Assembly (NCBI RefSeq): GCF_947500985.1
Contig: NZ_CANMTX010000002.1
Location: 434,001-498,000, forward strand
Direction of reading: 5' to 3'
Source of the DNA: an uncultured Maribacter sp.
GTDB lineage: Bacteria; Bacteroidota; Bacteroidia; Flavobacteriales; Flavobacteriaceae
Length of the DNA stretch: 64,000 nucleotides
The translations under genes were made by a program, and so were the position numbers. Below the pieces are notes generated by a model. The model made no database searches. It was given only the letters and a program-made list of their open reading frames with translations, and was not told where the DNA came from. Below are positions 17,133-47,753 of the stretch, in pieces (the stretch's first letter is position 1; every line of letters begins with the position of its first letter).

Positions 17133-17259
17133 AAGAATTTTTTACAAAGGTACGCTAGGGCTATTTACTTTTCAAGTAAATTCACCCTGTTAGCTGATAA
17201 AATATTCATAAAATACCACTCACTCAGTGTGTTTCTTTTTTTTAGCGGTTGTAAAAATG

Positions 17260-17267
17260 TACTTTTG
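17260..17267 (+). promoter_or_regulatory. -7 element of the rseP promoter
   Basis: TACTTTTG matches TAnnTTTG and ends 27 nt before the preferred rseP start at 17295. Because the transcript would begin near 17274, the GTG start proposed by the ORF track at 17229 is excluded. Confidence 0.5.
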
Positions 17268-17294
17268 TGCGATTTTAATTTTCAGGAAAAAAGA

Positions 17295-18644
17295 ATGAGC
17301 CCTATTATAATAAAGACAATACAATTTTTTTTAAGCCTTTCTATACTTATAGTACTACACGAGTTAGGGCATTTTATACCAGCAAAATATTTTAAAACAA
17401 GGGTAGAGAAATTCTACTTATTCTTTGATGTTAAGTTTTCGCTTTTCAAAAAGAAAATAGGGGAAACTGAATATGGTATTGGTTGGTTGCCTTTGGGCGG
17501 ATATGTAAAAATATCTGGAATGATTGATGAGAGCATGGACAAAGAAGCCATGGCAGAAGAACCGAAGGAGTGGGAGTTTAGAAGCAAGCCGGCTTGGCAA
17601 CGTTTAATTATAATGTTGGGTGGTGTTACGGTTAATTTCGTTTTAGCAGTAATTATTTTTATTGGTCTGGCCTATGCTTACGGAGAACAATATATAGCGA
17701 ATGATAGTTTAAAAGACGGAGTTTGGATTACTGATACTACTTTAGGTAACGCATTAGGTATACAAACAGGAGATAAGGTAATTGCGGTGGATGGTAAAAA
17801 AATAGAATCTTTAAATACTATTTTGCCAGAAGTAGTTTATGGTGAGAATATCACAATTGAACGTGATGGTAATACTATTGAAAAGGAAATACCAGTTGAT
17901 TTTATTGAAACTATATCTAATAATAAGGAAAATGCTAGGTTTATTAAGCCAAGATTACCTTGGATAATTAGCCAAGTACCTGAAGATTCTCAGAATGCAA
18001 GTGTAGGGTTTGAAACTGGTGATGTATTAACAAAAATTGCAGGTACCCCTGTTAAATACCAAGATGAGGTTTTTCCTATTCTAGAAGCTAAAAAAGGAAC
18101 TACAGTTGATGTAATTATAAATCGTAATGGAAGCAATGTTCCTTTGAAAGCAAAAGTTTCGGAAGAAGCAAAGTTGGGATTGATGATTGGTTTGACAACG
18201 ATTGATGCAGAGGAACAAGGGTATTTGAAAATAAATACAACAGATTACACTTTCATAGAATCTATCCCGGCCGGATGGAACAAAGGCGTTAAGACACTTA
18301 CAGATTACATTAAAGGGATGAAGAAAATTTTCAATCCTGATACTGGTGCTTATAAAGAGGTTGGTGGTTTTGCCGCTATTGGTGGTATGTTCCCAGATAC
18401 TTGGAACTGGCCTCAATTTTGGGGCACAACTGCGTTTATATCCATTATTCTAGCGTTTATGAATATACTACCTATTCCAGCATTAGATGGCGGGCACGTT
18501 ATGTTTTTGCTTTATGAAATAATTACAGGAAGAAAGCCAAGCGATAAATTTTTAGAGTACGCTCAAGTAACAGGATTCTTTATTTTAATAGCACTTTTAC
18601 TGTTCGCGAACGGTAATGATATCTATAAATTGATATTTAAATAA
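17295..18644 (+). CDS. rseP: RseP-type site-2 intramembrane metalloprotease
   Basis: A 449-aa M50 protease of the inner membrane. The zinc motif HELGH lies at 22-26 in the first helix, and the second ligand motif, NILPIPALDGGH, is near residue 400. Two PDZ-like segments lie between, and the C-terminal helix ends in ANGNDIYKLIF. RseP proteins cut the membrane segment of anti-sigma factors and remnant signal peptides. I start at ATG 17295 (MSPIIIKTIQFFLSL), preceded by AGGAAAAAAGA, instead of the track's GTG at 17229. The anti-sigma-like protein at 36854-37591 would be a natural substrate, which is inference. It is followed by the tRNA-Asn gene. Confidence 0.95.
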   Translation: MSPIIIKTIQFFLSLSILIVLHELGHFIPAKYFKTRVEKFYLFFDVKFSLFKKKIGETEYGIGWLPLGGYVKISGMIDESMDKEAMAEEPKEWEFRSKPAWQRLIIMLGGVTVNFVLAVIIFIGLAYAYGEQYIANDSLKDGVWITDTTLGNALGIQTGDKVIAVDGKKIESLNTILPEVVYGENITIERDGNTIEKEIPVDFIETISNNKENARFIKPRLPWIISQVPEDSQNASVGFETGDVLTKIAGTPVKYQDEVFPILEAKKGTTVDVIINRNGSNVPLKAKVSEEAKLGLMIGLTTIDAEEQGYLKINTTDYTFIESIPAGWNKGVKTLTDYIKGMKKIFNPDTGAYKEVGGFAAIGGMFPDTWNWPQFWGTTAFISIILAFMNILPIPALDGGHVMFLLYEIITGRKPSDKFLEYAQVTGFFILIALLLFANGNDIYKLIFK

Positions 18645-35578: not shown

Positions 35579-36175
35579 TTATTCTAGCCAAATTTTTGAT
35601 ATTGCCATGTTACAACCGGTTTTACTTCTAGAGTCGAATTGTAACCTTATAAAATCAATATCAGAAAATGTAAAATCATTGCCAGTTGGTTTTATTTCTG
35701 AAAACGGAATGGTAAAGACGAACTTACCTTCACGAGCCGGTACATGTTTGCCGTATGCGGCATAAGTGGTATTTGTAAAAAGATTCAAGTTGATACCGTT
35801 AACCGTACTTTTAGCCTCAAATGCTACTTTTAAAGACTTGTATTTGCTGGCGTCTATATTTAGTGGCGCATTTCCATTTTTATTGACTCCGTAATTTATA
35901 TAAGTTGTTCCCCTAGTGTCATAACCATAGCTCATAACGAGTAGCCCTTTTTTTATACTTAATTGCATGTTGTGTTCAAAAGGGTTTTGATTGAGCTTTG
36001 CAAAAACTTGCCGGTGCTGACCTATGATTTTTTTGCCTGTTTGTGTTTTTCTGTTTTCATTCATATCGGTAAATGTCAAATTGCTGATTTCACCAGTAGT
36101 AAAATCATCAAGTACTAGTTGGGCATTTATGGTAATAGATGCTGTACATATAAATAGGAGGGTCGCTATTTTCAT
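35579..36175 (-). CDS. Secreted CIA30/carbohydrate-binding-like protein, first gene of a putative sigma-controlled operon
   Basis: A 198-aa exported protein (signal peptide MKIATLLFICTASITINAQ). The mature region starts LVLDDFTTGE and continues as a jelly-roll-like sequence, with YKSLKVAFEAKSTVNGI and a final IDFIRLQFDSRSKTGCNMAISKIWLE. This pattern resembles CBM11/CIA30-type beta-sandwich domains, which bind glycans or proteins, but the match is by eye. It is the first gene downstream of a TGTTAACC-N15-CATGAA element with a 26-nt leader, and it is divergent from the ECF sigma gene. It therefore looks like a direct target of that sigma factor. Confidence 0.75.
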   Translation of the reverse strand: MKIATLLFICTASITINAQLVLDDFTTGEISNLTFTDMNENRKTQTGKKIIGQHRQVFAKLNQNPFEHNMQLSIKKGLLVMSYGYDTRGTTYINYGVNKNGNAPLNIDASKYKSLKVAFEAKSTVNGINLNLFTNTTYAAYGKHVPAREGKFVFTIPFSEIKPTGNDFTFSDIDFIRLQFDSRSKTGCNMAISKIWLE

Positions 36176-36201
36176 TTTGTTTTGGTTTTTGGTTGCAACT
36201 A

Positions 36202-36230
36202 TTCATGCTAATGGAAAGAAAAGGTTAACA
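36202..36230 (-). promoter_or_regulatory. Putative ECF-sigma promoter, site 1
   Basis: The minus strand reads TGTTAACC, 15 nt, CATGAA. The -10 part ends 26 nt before the start at 36175. The same element with the same spacing occurs at 41226-41254 and 47307-47335. It does not resemble the housekeeping TTTG/TAnnTTTG promoter. Confidence 0.65.
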
Positions 36231-36255
36231 TTCACTTTAATTTTTTACTTTTAAG

Positions 36256-36284
36256 TGTTAACTATTTATCCGTAAATGCATTAA
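36256..36284 (+). promoter_or_regulatory. Plus-strand copy of the ECF-type element abutting the sigma start codon
   Basis: TGTTAACT, 15 nt, CATTAA lies directly before the ATG at 36285. The spacing and both boxes match the three other sites, but a transcript starting here would begin inside the ORF. It may be a non-productive or autoregulatory site. Placed head-to-head with site 1. Confidence 0.4.
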
Positions 36285-36857
36285 ATGGAAAATCATTCAG
36301 ATGAAACTTTATTTCAAGCGCTTAAAGAAGGTTCTGAATCTGCTTTTAAAAAGGTATATGAAGAGAATCGTGAGCTATTCTTGAATTTTGCAAGAAGGTA
36401 TTCCCTGGCAGATGAAGAGGTGTTAGATGCTTACCAAGATGCTTACGTTGCACTTTATGAAAATATTCAGAATGGAAAATTAACAACCTTAAAAAGCGCT
36501 TTAAGTACGTATCTAATTAGTATAGGTAAGTATAAGATTATGGAGCGATTACGAAAGAGAAATAAGCATACGAACAATGAATTATTATTGAACAATGTAG
36601 AGGAAATAGATGACGAGATCGAAGCGTTTGATATTGACAACGATGCTTTGTCAACTGAACAAAAATTATTGAAAAAGTACTTTGATACTTTAGGAGAAAA
36701 ATGCCAAAAAATATTAAAGCTATTCTATTACCAACAGTATAACATTAAGGAAATTATGGCAGAAGGAAACTATAACAGTGAAAATGTGGTAAAAAGTCAG
36801 AAATCCAGATGTTTGAAAACATTAAAGGAAGCCATTAAAAATTCCCCCCAATTATGA
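36285..36857 (+). CDS. ECF-type RNA polymerase sigma factor
   Basis: A 190-aa sigma-70 family protein of ECF size with only regions 2 and 4. Region 2 spans about 10-85 (FARRYSLADEEVLDAYQDAYVALYENI, then YLISIGKYKIMERLRKR) and region 4 about 125-185 (LGEKCQKILKLFYYQQYNIKEIMAE, with the recognition helix in NYNSENVVKSQKSRCLKTLKE). The stop overlaps the start of the membrane protein that follows by 4 bp (ATGA), which is typical of sigma/anti-sigma pairs. The start ATG directly follows a promoter-like element. I infer that this factor drives the TGTTAACC-type promoters seen at three sites around it. Confidence 0.92.
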   Translation: MENHSDETLFQALKEGSESAFKKVYEENRELFLNFARRYSLADEEVLDAYQDAYVALYENIQNGKLTTLKSALSTYLISIGKYKIMERLRKRNKHTNNELLLNNVEEIDDEIEAFDIDNDALSTEQKLLKKYFDTLGEKCQKILKLFYYQQYNIKEIMAEGNYNSENVVKSQKSRCLKTLKEAIKNSPQL

Positions 36858-37591
36858 TGGATAAAGAGCAATTATTATTAAAATATTTTGATGGTTCATT
36901 GACCCCAGATGAGAAGGTCAATTTTAACCAGTTTTTAGAAAGTGATGCAGAATTTAAAACGCAGTTTGAATTTGAAAAGGATGTAAAATCTGTTGTACGC
37001 AAAACTGAAAATAACAGTTTTAAGAAAATGTTACAAGGTTTTGAATCTGAATTAAGTGGTGCACCTAGTCAGGAGAAACAAAATTTCTGGAAACCATTAA
37101 GTATAGCTGCTAGTATTGCCGTATTAATAGGTGTAAGCTGGTTTGTATTTAATTCTGATGTGTTTAATGGAACAGAAGAATTGTATGCTTCCAATTATGA
37201 GAAATACCCTAATACGGTATATACAATTACACGTGGCGATGCAACTGATGAGTCATTGGAGCGTTTAGCTTTTGAAGCTTATGAAACTGATGATTTTGAA
37301 ACTGCTATTACCTACCTCTTTGAGTTAAAGGAAAAGACTAGACTAGATTATGTAGATTTTTATTTAGGTCAAGCTTATCTTGCCAATGGAGATTATTTAA
37401 AAGCGACAGATAAATTCCAAGAAATTATATCAATAAATAGCGAGTTTAAAGATGAGGGCTATTGGTATGCAGCTCTTGCAAACCTAAAATTAGAGCAGGA
37501 AGAAGAAGCTAAAAAATTATTGGAGAAACTTATAAAAATGGGAACATATAAGAAGAATGAAGCAACAGAATTACTTGAAAAGTTGAACTAG
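36854..37591 (+). CDS. Putative anti-sigma factor: membrane protein with periplasmic TPR domain
   Basis: A 245-aa single-pass protein. Residues 1-80 are cytoplasmic and begin MMDKEQLLLKYFDGSLTPDE, similar to the N-terminus of many Bacteroidota anti-sigma factors (a short helical zinc-free domain). One transmembrane helix occupies about 81-99 (PLSIAASIAVLIGVSWFVF). Residues about 130-245 form three TPR-like helix pairs, including FETAITYLFELKEK and YLKATDKFQEIISIN. Overlap with the sigma gene by 4 bp and this topology suggest that it holds the sigma factor at the membrane and senses something in the periplasm through the TPRs. Its 3' end overlaps the convergent TPR-CHAT gene by 21 bp. Confidence 0.82.
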   Translation: MMDKEQLLLKYFDGSLTPDEKVNFNQFLESDAEFKTQFEFEKDVKSVVRKTENNSFKKMLQGFESELSGAPSQEKQNFWKPLSIAASIAVLIGVSWFVFNSDVFNGTEELYASNYEKYPNTVYTITRGDATDESLERLAFEAYETDDFETAITYLFELKEKTRLDYVDFYLGQAYLANGDYLKATDKFQEIISINSEFKDEGYWYAALANLKLEQEEEAKKLLEKLIKMGTYKKNEATELLEKLN

Positions 37592-40321
37592 TCTTTTTCT
37601 GTTCAAGAAAATAAGAAGAACCGAGATTACAGCAAACACATACCATTGCCAATGCGAATAGGTAATTAAGGGCTCGGTGTTTCCTTGAATGATATAACCT
37701 GACCAATAGTATGGGTGTGCAAGTCCGTTTTCTTTGTTCTTTTGTAAGAAGGATAGTTTAGCTTCCCTTAAAGATGCATCTTTTGGTTTTCCATTAGCTA
37801 AATTCTCATAAAACTCGCCCATAAGCTCAGAAGATGAATTGTCGTTCACTTTCCATAACGTACTTGATATACTTGCTGCGCCACTGTAGAAAAATCCTCT
37901 AGCAAGGCTTAAAAATCCTTCCCCCCGTTTAAGTTCGCCAATGCCACTTTCGCATCCACTTAAGGTAACGAGACTGGCATTTAAGGTTAAGTTATATAGG
38001 TCTTTTACAAAAAGTAAATCATCAGATTTTGATTTTGGAGTAAAAGCTAAATAAGAATATTCTGGATTCTTATCATCAAAAACGGCATGTGTTGCCAAAT
38101 GTAAGACCGAATAATCAGATAATGTTGCAGTGAAATTTTGTAGCGTAGCTTGGTCATTAATAAAAGATTTACCGGTAAAAGATGTCAATATCTGCTGAAC
38201 TTCATTTCTGTTATGCGGTAAATTGCCTAATATTTGAGAACGCGTGCCGTCTGAAGGTACATTATTATCAAAACTAGGCGCAAATGCTAGCAGGTTAGCA
38301 CTGTTTTGTTCTATGCTATTTAATTGAGCCCATAATGTAGCTGAGTTCACATAACTGATGGTTCTATCTTCTATCAAGTAGCGATGCTCTGTCTCATTAG
38401 AAACCAGACTGCCAAAAGGGATATAGTTTAATAAACCATCTGGGGCAAGTATAATTTTTTCTTGTAGATGTAATTCTAAAATTGGACCTAATAGTTTTTG
38501 ATACAGTTTATGACTCAGCTTAGAAAGTGAATCTGGGTTCGATTTAGGGTTCGAGAGCATTGAGTGTAAGTCGCTTATATTTTCTTCAAGTTCATCGGTA
38601 ATTCTAATACTATAAAAGAACTTATCATTCTTAGAAATAGCGATTGTATAAATTTTCTGGTTACCGTAGAAATAGGAAATGAAGAGTTCGTTTTCTTTTA
38701 AGTTACCTTGTACTTCTGGTAATGTTAGTATTTTATTATTGTACTTTAAATTATAGTATGCTGGGTAGTTGGTTTCTATATCAACTACCAAATTACGAAG
38801 TTCTTGTTTTAGGCTAAATAGCTGATCTTCTAAACCTTCTTCTAAATTTTCTGAAACGGCAATTTGTTTTTCAACATGTGTAATCTCTGCTTTTAATTGA
38901 GTTTCTCGTGATAATGTTTCTTTTGGGATTTTAGCAAATTCTGTGGCTTTAGAAGATAATAAAGCTTCTAGCAATAAGACGGATTTACTATTTTCAGAGA
39001 ATTGAAAAGCTTCATCTATATAGATATCATTGTTAGTTGACTTATATAAGTGTTGAGATGATGCTATGCCAGATTCGAAAATTGGATAAGCATTTTCTAT
39101 TAGAAATAATTTATCGGTAGAATTTTTAAAACTTGGTTTTATTTGATTAAGAAAAATTGTGGTCTGTTTTACCACCGCAGTTGCCTTTAAGTAAGATTCA
39201 TTATCTCCGTTTAAATTTAAAGTCGTAGCCTTGTTTTTAAATAGTTTTAGCGCGTTTGGATCCTTATCCTTTTTGTCTAAGGATGTTTTAAGTGCTAAAT
39301 CGAAATTTATTAATGCCTTTTCGTGAAAACCCAGTAGGTTTTGAAGTAGCCCTTTTTCATTGTAAGCAATTTCTAAATCAGAATTTTTTTGTTTTTCAAA
39401 ATTGTGTTTGATACTATTTATAGCTGAATCTATTTCAATTATAGCAATTTCATATTCCCAATTAGATTTATGGATAATCGCTTTTTTTAAATGGTATTTT
39501 ACTTGAAATATAGGTTTGTTTTGAAATAATTTTTTAGAGTCATTTAAAAATAAAAGGGCACTATCTTTTTGTAATTGATAACCATAGTTTTCAGCAATAT
39601 GAAATGCATTGGAAATTGCAGAATTGGTGTTTTTTTCTTTTTTATTATAGGCATATGCCTTAAGTAAATATGTGTTCGCTTCTTTATATTGTTTTTCCTT
39701 TATTAATACTTCGGCAAGCAAATTATAATTACCGGTTAAGGCTTCTAAATCAACATTTTCTGATTTTTGGATATCTCTTATGTTTTTTCTGTATAACGAC
39801 TTGGCGTCGTCGTATTTACCCTCTATCATATAAAGTTTGCCAAGGAAACTATAAGCTGCAGAGGCTAAACTTGTAATGGTTTCACTTTTTGTAATTAACG
39901 CGTTATTATTTTGGATAATCTTCTCAAAAGCTTCTCGTGATTTGGAGTATTCTAATAATTTAAGATGATAGTCACCTTGGTAATACAGTAGAATATTTAA
40001 GTTGTCTGTATTTAAAATGGTAGTACCAGAAATTAAAGAATCTAGTTGGCTAAGATTGGCGCTCATTCTACTTAAGTCATAATGATAGCTAGAAACCCCC
40101 GTAGAATTAAATAGCGACTCTATAAGTATAGAATCGCTATTAATTGTTTTTGCAATTTCTTTGACCTGGTCAAAATAGAAGTAGGCAGAATCTTTTTCGT
40201 AATAATAGAACTGTTCTGCTTTTTCATTCAACGAATCTACTTTTGAAAGCGTTAATTGTTGTGACCACAAACAAATGGGACAAAAGCAAATTAGGTAAAT
40301 TATTTTTTTCAACACAGGCAT
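37571..40321 (-). CDS. Membrane-anchored periplasmic TPR-CHAT protease
   Basis: A 916-aa protein. It has a signal peptide (MPVLKKIIYLICFCPICLWS), a long TPR array (about 25-400), a coiled-coil-like linker (about 450-530) and a CHAT caspase-like peptidase domain (about 600-885), then a C-terminal transmembrane helix (about 893-909). The catalytic dyad is intact: H745 in LHLATHAVF and C790 in TLSGCESGIG, followed by RGEGFLSLARGFFYSGA. The signal peptide plus C-terminal helix imply a periplasmic enzyme anchored in the inner membrane. It is the last gene of the 40931 operon, which starts at ECF-type promoter site 2. Convergence with the anti-sigma gene makes that protein a candidate substrate (inference). 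Confidence 0.88.
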   Translation of the reverse strand: MPVLKKIIYLICFCPICLWSQQLTLSKVDSLNEKAEQFYYYEKDSAYFYFDQVKEIAKTINSDSILIESLFNSTGVSSYHYDLSRMSANLSQLDSLISGTTILNTDNLNILLYYQGDYHLKLLEYSKSREAFEKIIQNNNALITKSETITSLASAAYSFLGKLYMIEGKYDDAKSLYRKNIRDIQKSENVDLEALTGNYNLLAEVLIKEKQYKEANTYLLKAYAYNKKEKNTNSAISNAFHIAENYGYQLQKDSALLFLNDSKKLFQNKPIFQVKYHLKKAIIHKSNWEYEIAIIEIDSAINSIKHNFEKQKNSDLEIAYNEKGLLQNLLGFHEKALINFDLALKTSLDKKDKDPNALKLFKNKATTLNLNGDNESYLKATAVVKQTTIFLNQIKPSFKNSTDKLFLIENAYPIFESGIASSQHLYKSTNNDIYIDEAFQFSENSKSVLLLEALLSSKATEFAKIPKETLSRETQLKAEITHVEKQIAVSENLEEGLEDQLFSLKQELRNLVVDIETNYPAYYNLKYNNKILTLPEVQGNLKENELFISYFYGNQKIYTIAISKNDKFFYSIRITDELEENISDLHSMLSNPKSNPDSLSKLSHKLYQKLLGPILELHLQEKIILAPDGLLNYIPFGSLVSNETEHRYLIEDRTISYVNSATLWAQLNSIEQNSANLLAFAPSFDNNVPSDGTRSQILGNLPHNRNEVQQILTSFTGKSFINDQATLQNFTATLSDYSVLHLATHAVFDDKNPEYSYLAFTPKSKSDDLLFVKDLYNLTLNASLVTLSGCESGIGELKRGEGFLSLARGFFYSGAASISSTLWKVNDNSSSELMGEFYENLANGKPKDASLREAKLSFLQKNKENGLAHPYYWSGYIIQGNTEPLITYSHWQWYVFAVISVLLIFLNRKRLVQLFK

Positions 40322-40367
40322 AGGGCTTCTTGAATTTTGGAGCCATTACACTAAAATACTAAACCTG

Positions 40368-40931
40368 TTAAAAACCTAAGCTCTGATTGTAGATTAAAGT
40401 ATCTCCTAATTCATCAGTTTTTTCAATTTGAATATTAATTTGATTACCAAAACCCTTGGCATTGATTTCTAAATATTGTAGATCAGGTTCCCCCGGTAAT
40501 GGACTCAATTTGTCTATAGTTGTTAATAATTCTCCATTAATGTTACTTATAGTACATTTTATTAGAGAAAATTTACTGCTGAAAATAAAGTATTCGAACC
40601 TTACAGGAACGCATTTACCATTAGGCATGTCACAAGGTACGGGCCATCTTTTCATTACTTCATCAAAACTAGAAATTTGGGCATAACGTTGCTTTAATTC
40701 ATCTTTTACAATTAGCAATTCAGTAGCTTCTTCTTCCGTGGCATTCTTTAACTTAATGTCTATAAGTTGAATTTCATTATTTATATAATATTTTTCTAGG
40801 TCACCTTCATAAATATAATTTTCACTGGTAAGTTCAATTTTTTCTTTGTTTGTAATGGTTCCTGTAAAGTCTTTATCGCAGGCGCATAAAACAACACTGC
40901 ACATTACTATTAATAATAGTTTTAATTTCAT
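40368..40931 (-). CDS. Lipoprotein of unknown function upstream of the CHAT protease gene
   Basis: A 187-aa lipoprotein with lipobox VVLCAC (Cys-18). The mature part has a Glu/Lys-rich helical segment (about 50-80, with ATEEEATELLIVKDELKQRY) followed by a beta-rich domain with two cysteines in VPCDMPNGKCVPVRF, spaced to form a disulfide. I recognise no family. It lies 46 nt upstream of the CHAT gene on the same strand and downstream of ECF-type promoter site 2. It is therefore probably coexpressed with the protease and could be a partner or substrate. Confidence 0.78.
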   Translation of the reverse strand: MKLKLLLIVMCSVVLCACDKDFTGTITNKEKIELTSENYIYEGDLEKYYINNEIQLIDIKLKNATEEEATELLIVKDELKQRYAQISSFDEVMKRWPVPCDMPNGKCVPVRFEYFIFSSKFSLIKCTISNINGELLTTIDKLSPLPGEPDLQYLEINAKGFGNQINIQIEKTDELGDTLIYNQSLGF

Positions 40932-41025
40932 AATATAGAAATTTTAAATTTTAATAAATAGATTTAGTTATAGTTTAAAAATCAGTTGGTTACACTTAAA
41001 AATATGTGATTTACCAGTTAGAACC

Positions 41026-41077
41026 TATAAAACATGTAACAAGTGCCGTTTGTAGTGTAACACTGGTATGTTTTATA
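41026..41077. other. Long-range hairpin between the small ORF and the lipoprotein gene
   Basis: TATAAAACAT (41026-41035) and ATGTTTTATA (41068-41077) form a perfect 10-bp stem, with AGTG/CACT pairing inside. It would lie in the transcript from promoter site 2. It could attenuate or process the message; there is no T run. Confidence 0.4.
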
Positions 41078-41093
41078 GTATAATTGCTATTAT

Positions 41094-41198
41094 TTAAGTT
41101 TTTTCAGCTTTAAGAAAAAGTACTTTCAAACTTTTTTGATCTAGCTGTATCTGTAATAACATAATTGTAACCTGGAGTGTTCGTAAAATTGTTTTCAT
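41094..41198 (-). CDS. Possible 34-aa leader or remnant ORF downstream of ECF-type promoter site 2
   Basis: ATG 41198 to a TAA ending at 41094 encodes MKTILRTLQVTIMLLQIQLD followed by a basic tail. It is the first ORF after promoter site 2, with a 27-nt leader like those of the genes at 36175 and 47280, and GAAAG lies just before the ATG. The start resembles a signal peptide that then loses hydrophobicity. It may be a real small protein, a leader peptide or the stump of a decayed gene. No homolog is known to me. Confidence 0.35.
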   Translation of the reverse strand: MKTILRTLQVTIMLLQIQLDQKSLKVLFLKAEKT

Positions 41199-41225
41199 CT
41201 TTCGTGTTTTAATTATTATTTACAA

Positions 41226-41254
41226 TTAATGCAGATAGGTGAGAAAGGTTAACA
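41226..41254 (-). promoter_or_regulatory. Putative ECF-sigma promoter, site 2
   Basis: The minus strand reads TGTTAACC, 15 nt, CATTAA. The -10 part ends 27 nt before the small ORF at 41198. The lipoprotein and TPR-CHAT genes lie downstream on the same strand. Confidence 0.65.
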
Positions 41255-41288
41255 ATGTTTAGAAAAATAGTTCAGGAGTTTGTAGATC

Positions 41289-47280: not shown

Positions 47281-47306
47281 GATGTTCTTTTTTAGTCGTT
47301 TGTCTT

Positions 47307-47335
47307 TTAATGACACGATTTAAAAAAGGTTAACA
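47307..47335 (-). promoter_or_regulatory. Putative ECF-sigma promoter, site 3
   Basis: The minus strand reads TGTTAACC, 15 nt, CATTAA. The -10 part ends 26 nt before the start at 47280. It would drive the six-gene envelope operon ending at 41289. Confidence 0.65.
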
Positions 47336-47753
47336 TCAATCTTTTTTCTGAACAACATTTTTTAATGTTTTTCTTTGAAATCTTTAATTGAGCCTTTGTG
47401 ACTTTAGTAGTTTTTCATTAAAGTCAGTTTGACTTTGACCTTGGAAATACAGGAGATCGATTAATTACGAAATGAAGACGTGTACAAATAGTGAACAATT
47501 AGTTGTGTAACTATATGTTTAGTAATAGTTTATTATAGTATGGATTTGAACGAAGAAATTTGTTCTGAGGATGTACAATGACAAACTTCGTTATAACATT
47601 ATACCAAGAATATAAATGAAAATTTTGCTTTTGTATATAGTAACATCAATTTAATAACAAACGGTTGTTGTTTACATCACTTTTCAGCAGACTTAGAACT
47701 ATAATTTTGCAGTGCCCTTTAAAAAGGATACGTTCATAATTTGAGTTAGTTTA

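Follow-up and report, generated by a model that had tools for sequence, protein, structure and literature searches.

Our analysis of a Maribacter locus points to a TPR-CHAT protein (CHAT) as the protease that switches on an ECF sigma factor (SIG): CHAT would cut the membrane-bound TPR anti-sigma factor ANT after R127, SIG would be freed, and the switch would amplify itself. Judged from sequences and structural models, we give this reading as a whole a probability of about 0.8. The observations on which it is built are the gene content of the locus, the linkage of its genes, an invariant catalytic dyad, a shared promoter motif, the covariation of R127 with positions of the putative S1 pocket of CHAT, and the decay of the site around R127. 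The window, i.e., the whole stretch of DNA analysed, covers 64,000 nucleotides of an uncultured Maribacter sp. (contig NZ_CANMTX010000002.1), and all positions in Table 1 refer to it. The closest named relative of the locus is Maribacter stanieri.

Gene content and predicted topology of the module

SIG was assigned to the ECF sigma factors by profile (TIGR02937, E=1.8e-18, 66.7 bits with a cut-off of 42.9), with Sigma70_r2 above its cut-off and a weak r4; among the sigma proteins of its group, C140 and C176 are conserved in 97-98%. The SIG and ANT genes overlap by 4 bp (ATGA), and ANT and CHAT are convergent, with 3′ ends overlapping by 21 bp. A first-pass annotation, made from the letters of the window, had placed SIG, ANT and the convergent CHAT gene in the same way, including the 4-bp overlap, and open reading frames and family profiles agree with it. 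Its span ended at 40931 and thus included the lipoprotein gene LIP, which its discussion left aside; LIP is kept directly upstream of CHAT in the convergent subfamily, and it belongs to the module. A search of the LIP sequence profile against the PDB found no fold; the protein could be a sensor, an inhibitor or a tether. The annotation had also called an RseP gene at 17295-18644. An M50 ORF with PDZ domains is indeed present there, but 17295 is an inner start of the longer frame given in Table 1. CHAT is the sole CHAT gene in the genome.

Table 1. Positions of genes, residues and promoter motifs of the module in the window
Feature	Position	Strand	Remarks
M50 ORF with PDZ domains, RseP-type site-2 protease	17229..18644	+	unlinked to the module
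SIG-type motif, divergent	36201..36232	-	20.6 bits; 25 nt before gene 35579-36175
Sigma-type motif of SIG	36254..36285	+	21.4 bits; abuts the ATG
SIG, ECF sigma factor gene	36285..36857	+	190 aa; ORF and family profiles
ANT, single-pass TPR anti-sigma gene	36854..37591	+	245 aa; TM 83-100, TPR from about 135
ANT membrane helix, residues 83-100	37100..37153	+	prediction
Predicted cleavage site R127/G128 in ANT	37232..37237	+	covariation
CHAT, TPR-CHAT gene	37571..40321	-	916 aa; signal peptide, TPRs, CHAT domain 602-881, C-terminal TM 891-915
Asp827, predicted S1-pocket residue	37841..37843	-	Cys+37; MALT1 Glu500 position
Catalytic Cys790 codon	37952..37954	-	conserved 74/74
Ser788, predicted S1-pocket residue	37958..37960	-	Cys-2; MALT1 Asp462 position
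Catalytic His745 codon	38087..38089	-	conserved 74/74
Glu707, predicted S1-pocket residue	38201..38203	-	alpha1; MALT1 Asp365 position
LIP, lipoprotein gene	40368..40931	-	187 aa; directly upstream of CHAT on the CHAT strand
SIG-type motif upstream of LIP-CHAT	41225..41256	-	25.5 bits; 293 nt before the LIP ATG
SIG-type motif upstream of a six-gene run	47306..47337	-	25.0 bits; 25 nt before the run 47280-41289

ANT matches TPR_2 above its cut-off and has one hydrophobic helix with a predicted N-in/C-out orientation. In 71 of 73 homologues a single TM is predicted, and in 68 the positive charges are predicted inside. ANT fits the pattern of membrane anti-sigma factors, being a single-pass protein, N-in by prediction, whose gene overlaps that of its sigma factor. 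Residues 4-68 contain helices in the AF2 model. The cytoplasmic anti-sigma domain had no match in any sequence profile, whether family models or PDB profiles; searching the ANT and LIP profiles against the PDB returned TPR and coiled-coil proteins as the only notable matches, with no anti-sigma domain, and TPR proteins were the sole matches of the ANT AF2 model in Foldseek.

The CHAT domain was identified by PF12770 (219 bits with a cut-off of 24), and TPR_12 was also found. H741, H745 and C790 are invariant in all 74 CHAT proteins. Based on the profile and the dyad, CHAT belongs to the TPR-CHAT peptidases of clan CD, with a predicted peptidase activity. With the threshold applied, 66 of the 74 have a C-terminal TM, and judging the borderline cases by eye leaves a single protein without one; in the relatives, basic residues usually follow the C-terminal helix, and most have a hydrophobic N-terminus. 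The signal peptide, the intact H745/C790 dyad and the C-terminal membrane helix are all as the first-pass annotation had described them. Because helix 891-915 ends in basic residues, the positive-inside rule predicts a periplasmic CHAT domain. Given this helix and the positive-inside pattern of the ANT helix, the TPR parts of both proteins are expected on the periplasmic side.

The AF2 model of CHAT (pLDDT 88.6, pTM 0.84) is confident except for short loops. One low-confidence loop, 793-797, lies just behind the catalytic Cys; as modelled, it resembles apo caspase-like enzymes and would fit a protease awaiting activation. The nearest solved folds in Foldseek were DdvA of Myxococcus, Csx29 and separase, and the CHAT-domain profile reaches DdvA and Csx29 by sequence. 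DdvA (8rot, 8rw5) is both the first Foldseek match and the first profile match.

Conservation and linkage across Bacteroidota

Using 201 Flavobacteriaceae genomes, we found an ANT homologue at most 15 kb from 106 of 136 CHAT matches, while about 2 were expected by chance; a chance adjacency of the two genes was rejected on this basis. At 62 of 80 named CHAT loci from a CHAT profile scan of 85,462 species genomes, SIG and ANT lie within 10 kb, and the order lipoprotein-CHAT / anti-sigma-sigma is that of most Flavobacteriaceae and of Mangrovivirga among these loci. Starting from ANT, we compared 60 loci from across the phylum, picked among the strongest ANT-profile matches; 47 of them have CHAT within about 8 kb. 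CHAT is absent over 8 kb at the remaining 13, of which some keep the arginine. Co-conservation of the three genes, whose absence the first-pass annotation had named as refuting its proposal, is strong both in Flavobacteriaceae and in the ANT-anchored set and, as far as gene content and linkage tell, the module is conserved across Bacteroidota.

The genes are arranged in at least four orders: convergent (39), same-strand operon (21), divergent with a short gap (18) and divergent with a long gap (19). In the operon type (sigma - anti-sigma - CHAT), SIG, ANT and CHAT overlap or nearly touch on one strand. CHAT stays constant, and the other neighbours vary with the gene order. We saw no large conserved effector gene adjoining CHAT among about 200 related loci. 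A known defence system was rejected as an explanation, a PADLOC search of SIG, ANT and CHAT having found no relevant component.

Some loci have neighbourhoods of their own. In L085, L087-L092, L097, L101, L110, L114, L125 and L131, a subtilase (S8) lipoprotein occupies the place of LIP beside CHAT. In the long divergent type (L115-L120, L130, L132-L134), a fixed set stands beside CHAT, consisting of a PKD/DUF7619/DUF7849 protein, a lipoprotein and a small retropepsin-like aspartyl protease. In two Tenacibaculum loci (L181, L182), SIG is gone from its place and LIP, CHAT and ANT remain; since ANT and LIP-CHAT still carry sigma-type promoter motifs there, a sigma factor encoded elsewhere may serve them.

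Covariation of the ANT linker with the predicted S1 pocket of CHAT

Between the membrane helix and the TPR domain of ANT lies a non-helical linker (115-134), predicted to be periplasmic, which holds the extended conserved stretch YPNTVYTIT-R127-G; R127 is located about 27 residues past the membrane helix. Among 205 loci, the residue pairs at ANT 127 and CHAT 827 were R-D in 166, M-E in 24, K-E in 8 and K-D in 3, with Q-E, M-H, M-D and K-N found once each. The exceptions are K with D in L122, L206 and L264 and M with D in L317. When the 312 CHAT columns were ranked by association with ANT 127, positions 827, 707 and 788 were the top three and, in the reverse ranking, ANT 127 was the first of 233 ANT columns for association with CHAT 827. 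The same three CHAT positions lead when the M clade is left out and R is contrasted with K/Q alone. Other ANT columns pair with other CHAT columns, at lower values. On the tree, we counted 5 and 6 changes, 3 of which fall on the same branches, a number reached in 0 of 3000 random placements. Two of these roughly 5 to 6 changes sit on the stems of whole clades, and an independent-pairs sign test was not significant, the pairs being too few. As independent changes are few, the argument from covariation draws mainly on which columns rank first.

We placed positions 707, 788 and 827 in the S1 pocket by their position along the fold, not by a complex structure, with MALT1 as the reference and Cys464 as its catalytic residue. 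The specificity of MALT1 for arginine at P1 has been credited to Asp365 (alpha1), Asp462 (L4) and Glu500 (L5) (PMC4357240). Since the three CHAT positions fall at the S1 residues of MALT1, they are predicted to be equivalent to the clan CD S1 pocket, and the covariation would be of the kind seen between a protease pocket and the P1 residue that it reads. An equivalence of D827 with D2151 of separase was considered as proof and dropped: the alignment implied by PMC9729208 puts D2151 at W+8, not W+4, and because of this mismatch the MALT1 positions were used instead.

Additionally, we identified five loci with an operon-type neighbourhood that have no CHAT, three of which are also devoid of SIG. 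The M-[SG] site is kept in 23 of 23 operon-type loci with CHAT and in 0 of the 5 without it; being related, these five count as one or two events. In these alignments, the putative ANT site is decayed where CHAT is missing. The central proposal of the first-pass annotation, that CHAT cuts ANT, is strongly supported by these comparisons, with both this decay and the covariation between linker and S1 positions suggesting cleavage.

Promoter motif and predicted regulon

From the upstream regions of 117 non-redundant sigma genes, we obtained the two-block motif TGTTAACCTT-N13-CATTAA. At 14 bits or more, it occurs upstream of 68 of 134 SIG genes and in 0 of 670 shuffled sequences, a rate that is biased because the matrix was built from the same SIG set; the rate for LIP (23 of 77 genes at the same threshold, none in shuffled sequences) is free of this bias. 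In about 60 loci, the motif ends on the SIG ATG itself, which may mean that the transcript has no leader or that the true start is located further in. SIG is predicted to be autoregulated through this conserved motif. The annotation had put CHAT downstream of a putative sigma promoter and had proposed a self-amplifying loop; the presence of the same motif before SIG and before the LIP-CHAT pair (Table 1) supports both.

The six-gene run preceded by the motif includes, among others, genes for a DUF4412 protein and an OmpA-domain lipoprotein. Outside the window, the sole further perfect matches in the genome are located upstream of two collagen-like lipoprotein genes, and collagen-like lipoprotein genes next to the sigma gene in relatives also carry the motif. 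The predicted regulon looks like one of surface lipoproteins and exported proteins, not of chaperones and proteases; for this reason, "envelope stress", the trigger proposed in the annotation, may be too specific a term.

The interval that separates the LIP-CHAT promoter from the LIP start (40932-41224, minus strand) holds a 34-codon frame; its first residues are MKT, as in the neighbouring lipoprotein genes, and it is perhaps a gene remnant or a leader peptide. A long gap is also found in the relatives L142 (296 nt) and L067 (210 nt).

Alternative explanations and proposed mechanism

CHAT could be an output of the system rather than its activator, SIG turning on LIP-CHAT, CHAT processing other exported proteins, and a different signal or a different site-1 protease inactivating ANT. 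The promoter motif that the CHAT operon shares with other target genes would agree with this, as would the frequent position of CHAT beside further secreted hydrolases (a subtilase or an aspartyl protease, for instance). Nevertheless, outputs turn over between gene orders and CHAT stays, the operon type keeps SIG, ANT and CHAT overlapping or nearly touching on one strand, and neither the S1 covariation nor the site decay is in line with a mere output; we consider this explanation unlikely. CHAT may, on the other hand, be output and activator at once.

It is also very unlikely, in our view, that covariation and linkage reflect joint inheritance of a gene block, with clades differing at many sites and no substrate relation between the proteins. 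Such an origin would suit the small number of independent changes and the two located on clade stems, but confounding by clade would not pick three S1 positions out of 312 columns, and do so in two separate contrasts; moreover, the gene order has been rearranged many times while the set has stayed together. Finally, CHAT might act on ANT without cutting it, as a TPR-CHAT co-sensor that binds ANT, comparable to the CHAT-like region of DdvA. The first rank of DdvA in both the Foldseek and the profile searches speaks for this idea, which we nonetheless hold to be highly improbable in view of a dyad invariant in every CHAT protein compared and of covariation located at S1 positions.

Cleavage of ANT by CHAT being the preferred reading, we infer the following order of events, including its topology and trigger. 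SIG would be held by the cytoplasmic part of ANT. An envelope signal, perhaps sensed by the TPRs of ANT and CHAT or by LIP, would activate the membrane-anchored, periplasmic CHAT. Its site-1 cut in ANT would follow R127, in the linker that joins the membrane helix to the TPR domain, and the TPR domain would thereby be shed. The remaining stub would become a substrate of RseP, which probably cuts next (site 2), and SIG would be released. SIG would then act on TGTTAACCTT-N13-CATTAA promoters to transcribe its own operon, LIP-CHAT and a set of genes for surface and exported proteins; with its own operon and LIP-CHAT among its targets, the switch would amplify itself.

Novelty and significance

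TPR-CHAT genes are common in bacteria, and known substrates are mostly wanting. The module is made of known families, and we found no account of them joined into a phylum-wide, periplasmic switch free of CRISPR, nor of any such system outside CRISPR, in openly available full-text journal articles. We regard a broader proposal as somewhat favoured by the data: that separase-like TPR-CHAT proteins are, throughout Bacteroidota, site-1 proteases dedicated to periplasmic TPR anti-sigma factors and co-evolving with them, that paralogous modules of one genome are insulated partly by Arg/Asp, Lys/Glu and Met/Glu pairs, and that Craspase is a specialised offshoot of this older protease/anti-sigma/sigma theme. 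The switch proposed here, if true, would give Bacteroidota a caspase/separase-type counterpart of DegS, hint at a possible source of the Craspase logic, and offer protease-site pairs of several specificities for building switches. Substrate, cut site, specificity pocket, promoter motif and regulon are predicted to the residue, so that point mutations can test each of them.

Comparison with known systems

In E. coli, RseA, DegS and RseP form a system of regulated intramembrane proteolysis in which DegS is a trypsin-type site-1 protease. The Maribacter module is similar in its single-pass anti-sigma factor, in a predicted periplasmic site-1 cut shortly past the helix and in the presence of an M50 protease. 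It differs in that the predicted site-1 protease is a cysteine protease of the caspase/separase type, the anti-sigma factor has a TPR domain, and the protease gene adjoins the anti-sigma gene. PMC10028731 also cites the E. coli system.

DdvS-DdvA of Myxococcus xanthus also pairs an ECF sigma factor with a membrane-spanning anti-sigma factor containing TPRs and a CHAT-like region; its trigger is not known (PMC4374960). DdvA carries its CHAT-like region on the anti-sigma polypeptide itself, whereas in Maribacter protease and anti-sigma factor are separate proteins. The His and Cys are kept in the alignment of the DdvA region (8rot/8rw5). In the literature, we found neither a report of DdvA as a protease nor a paper asking the question.

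Separase (family C50), a Foldseek match of CHAT, shares with it a helical arm and a caspase fold, as well as arginine at P1 (PMC4626109), which is predicted for CHAT; unlike CHAT, it is a eukaryotic cohesin protease, and sequence identity is low. CalpL (CRISPR-associated Lon), which acts with CalpT and a sigma factor, is a signal-activated protease (PMC11417357; PMC10028731) likewise presumed to release a sigma factor through cleavage of the partner, but it is of the Lon type, has a cyclic oligoadenylate signal, and is not combined with a membrane anti-sigma factor of the ANT kind.

In Craspase, of the type III-E CRISPR systems, the TPR-CHAT protease Csx29 cuts the sigma-factor inhibitor Csx30 and so controls an ECF sigma factor (PMC10028731, PMC9729208). 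The Csx29-Csx30-CASP-sigma system is thus akin to the Maribacter module, where a TPR-CHAT protease is predicted to cleave an ECF sigma inhibitor, and Csx29 is among the nearest structures to CHAT. In contrast to Craspase, no CRISPR effector was seen beside CHAT in about 200 loci, protease and inhibitor are predicted to be membrane-bound and periplasmic, and a 245-aa TPR membrane protein takes the place of the soluble Csx30-type inhibitor. Because the inhibitor is of another kind and no Cas effector was seen beside CHAT, we did not file the module under CASP. Csx29, which cuts Csx30 between residues 427 and 429 (PMC10028731), has Lys where separase reads the P1 Arg (PMC9729208), while the cut predicted for the Maribacter module follows an arginine.
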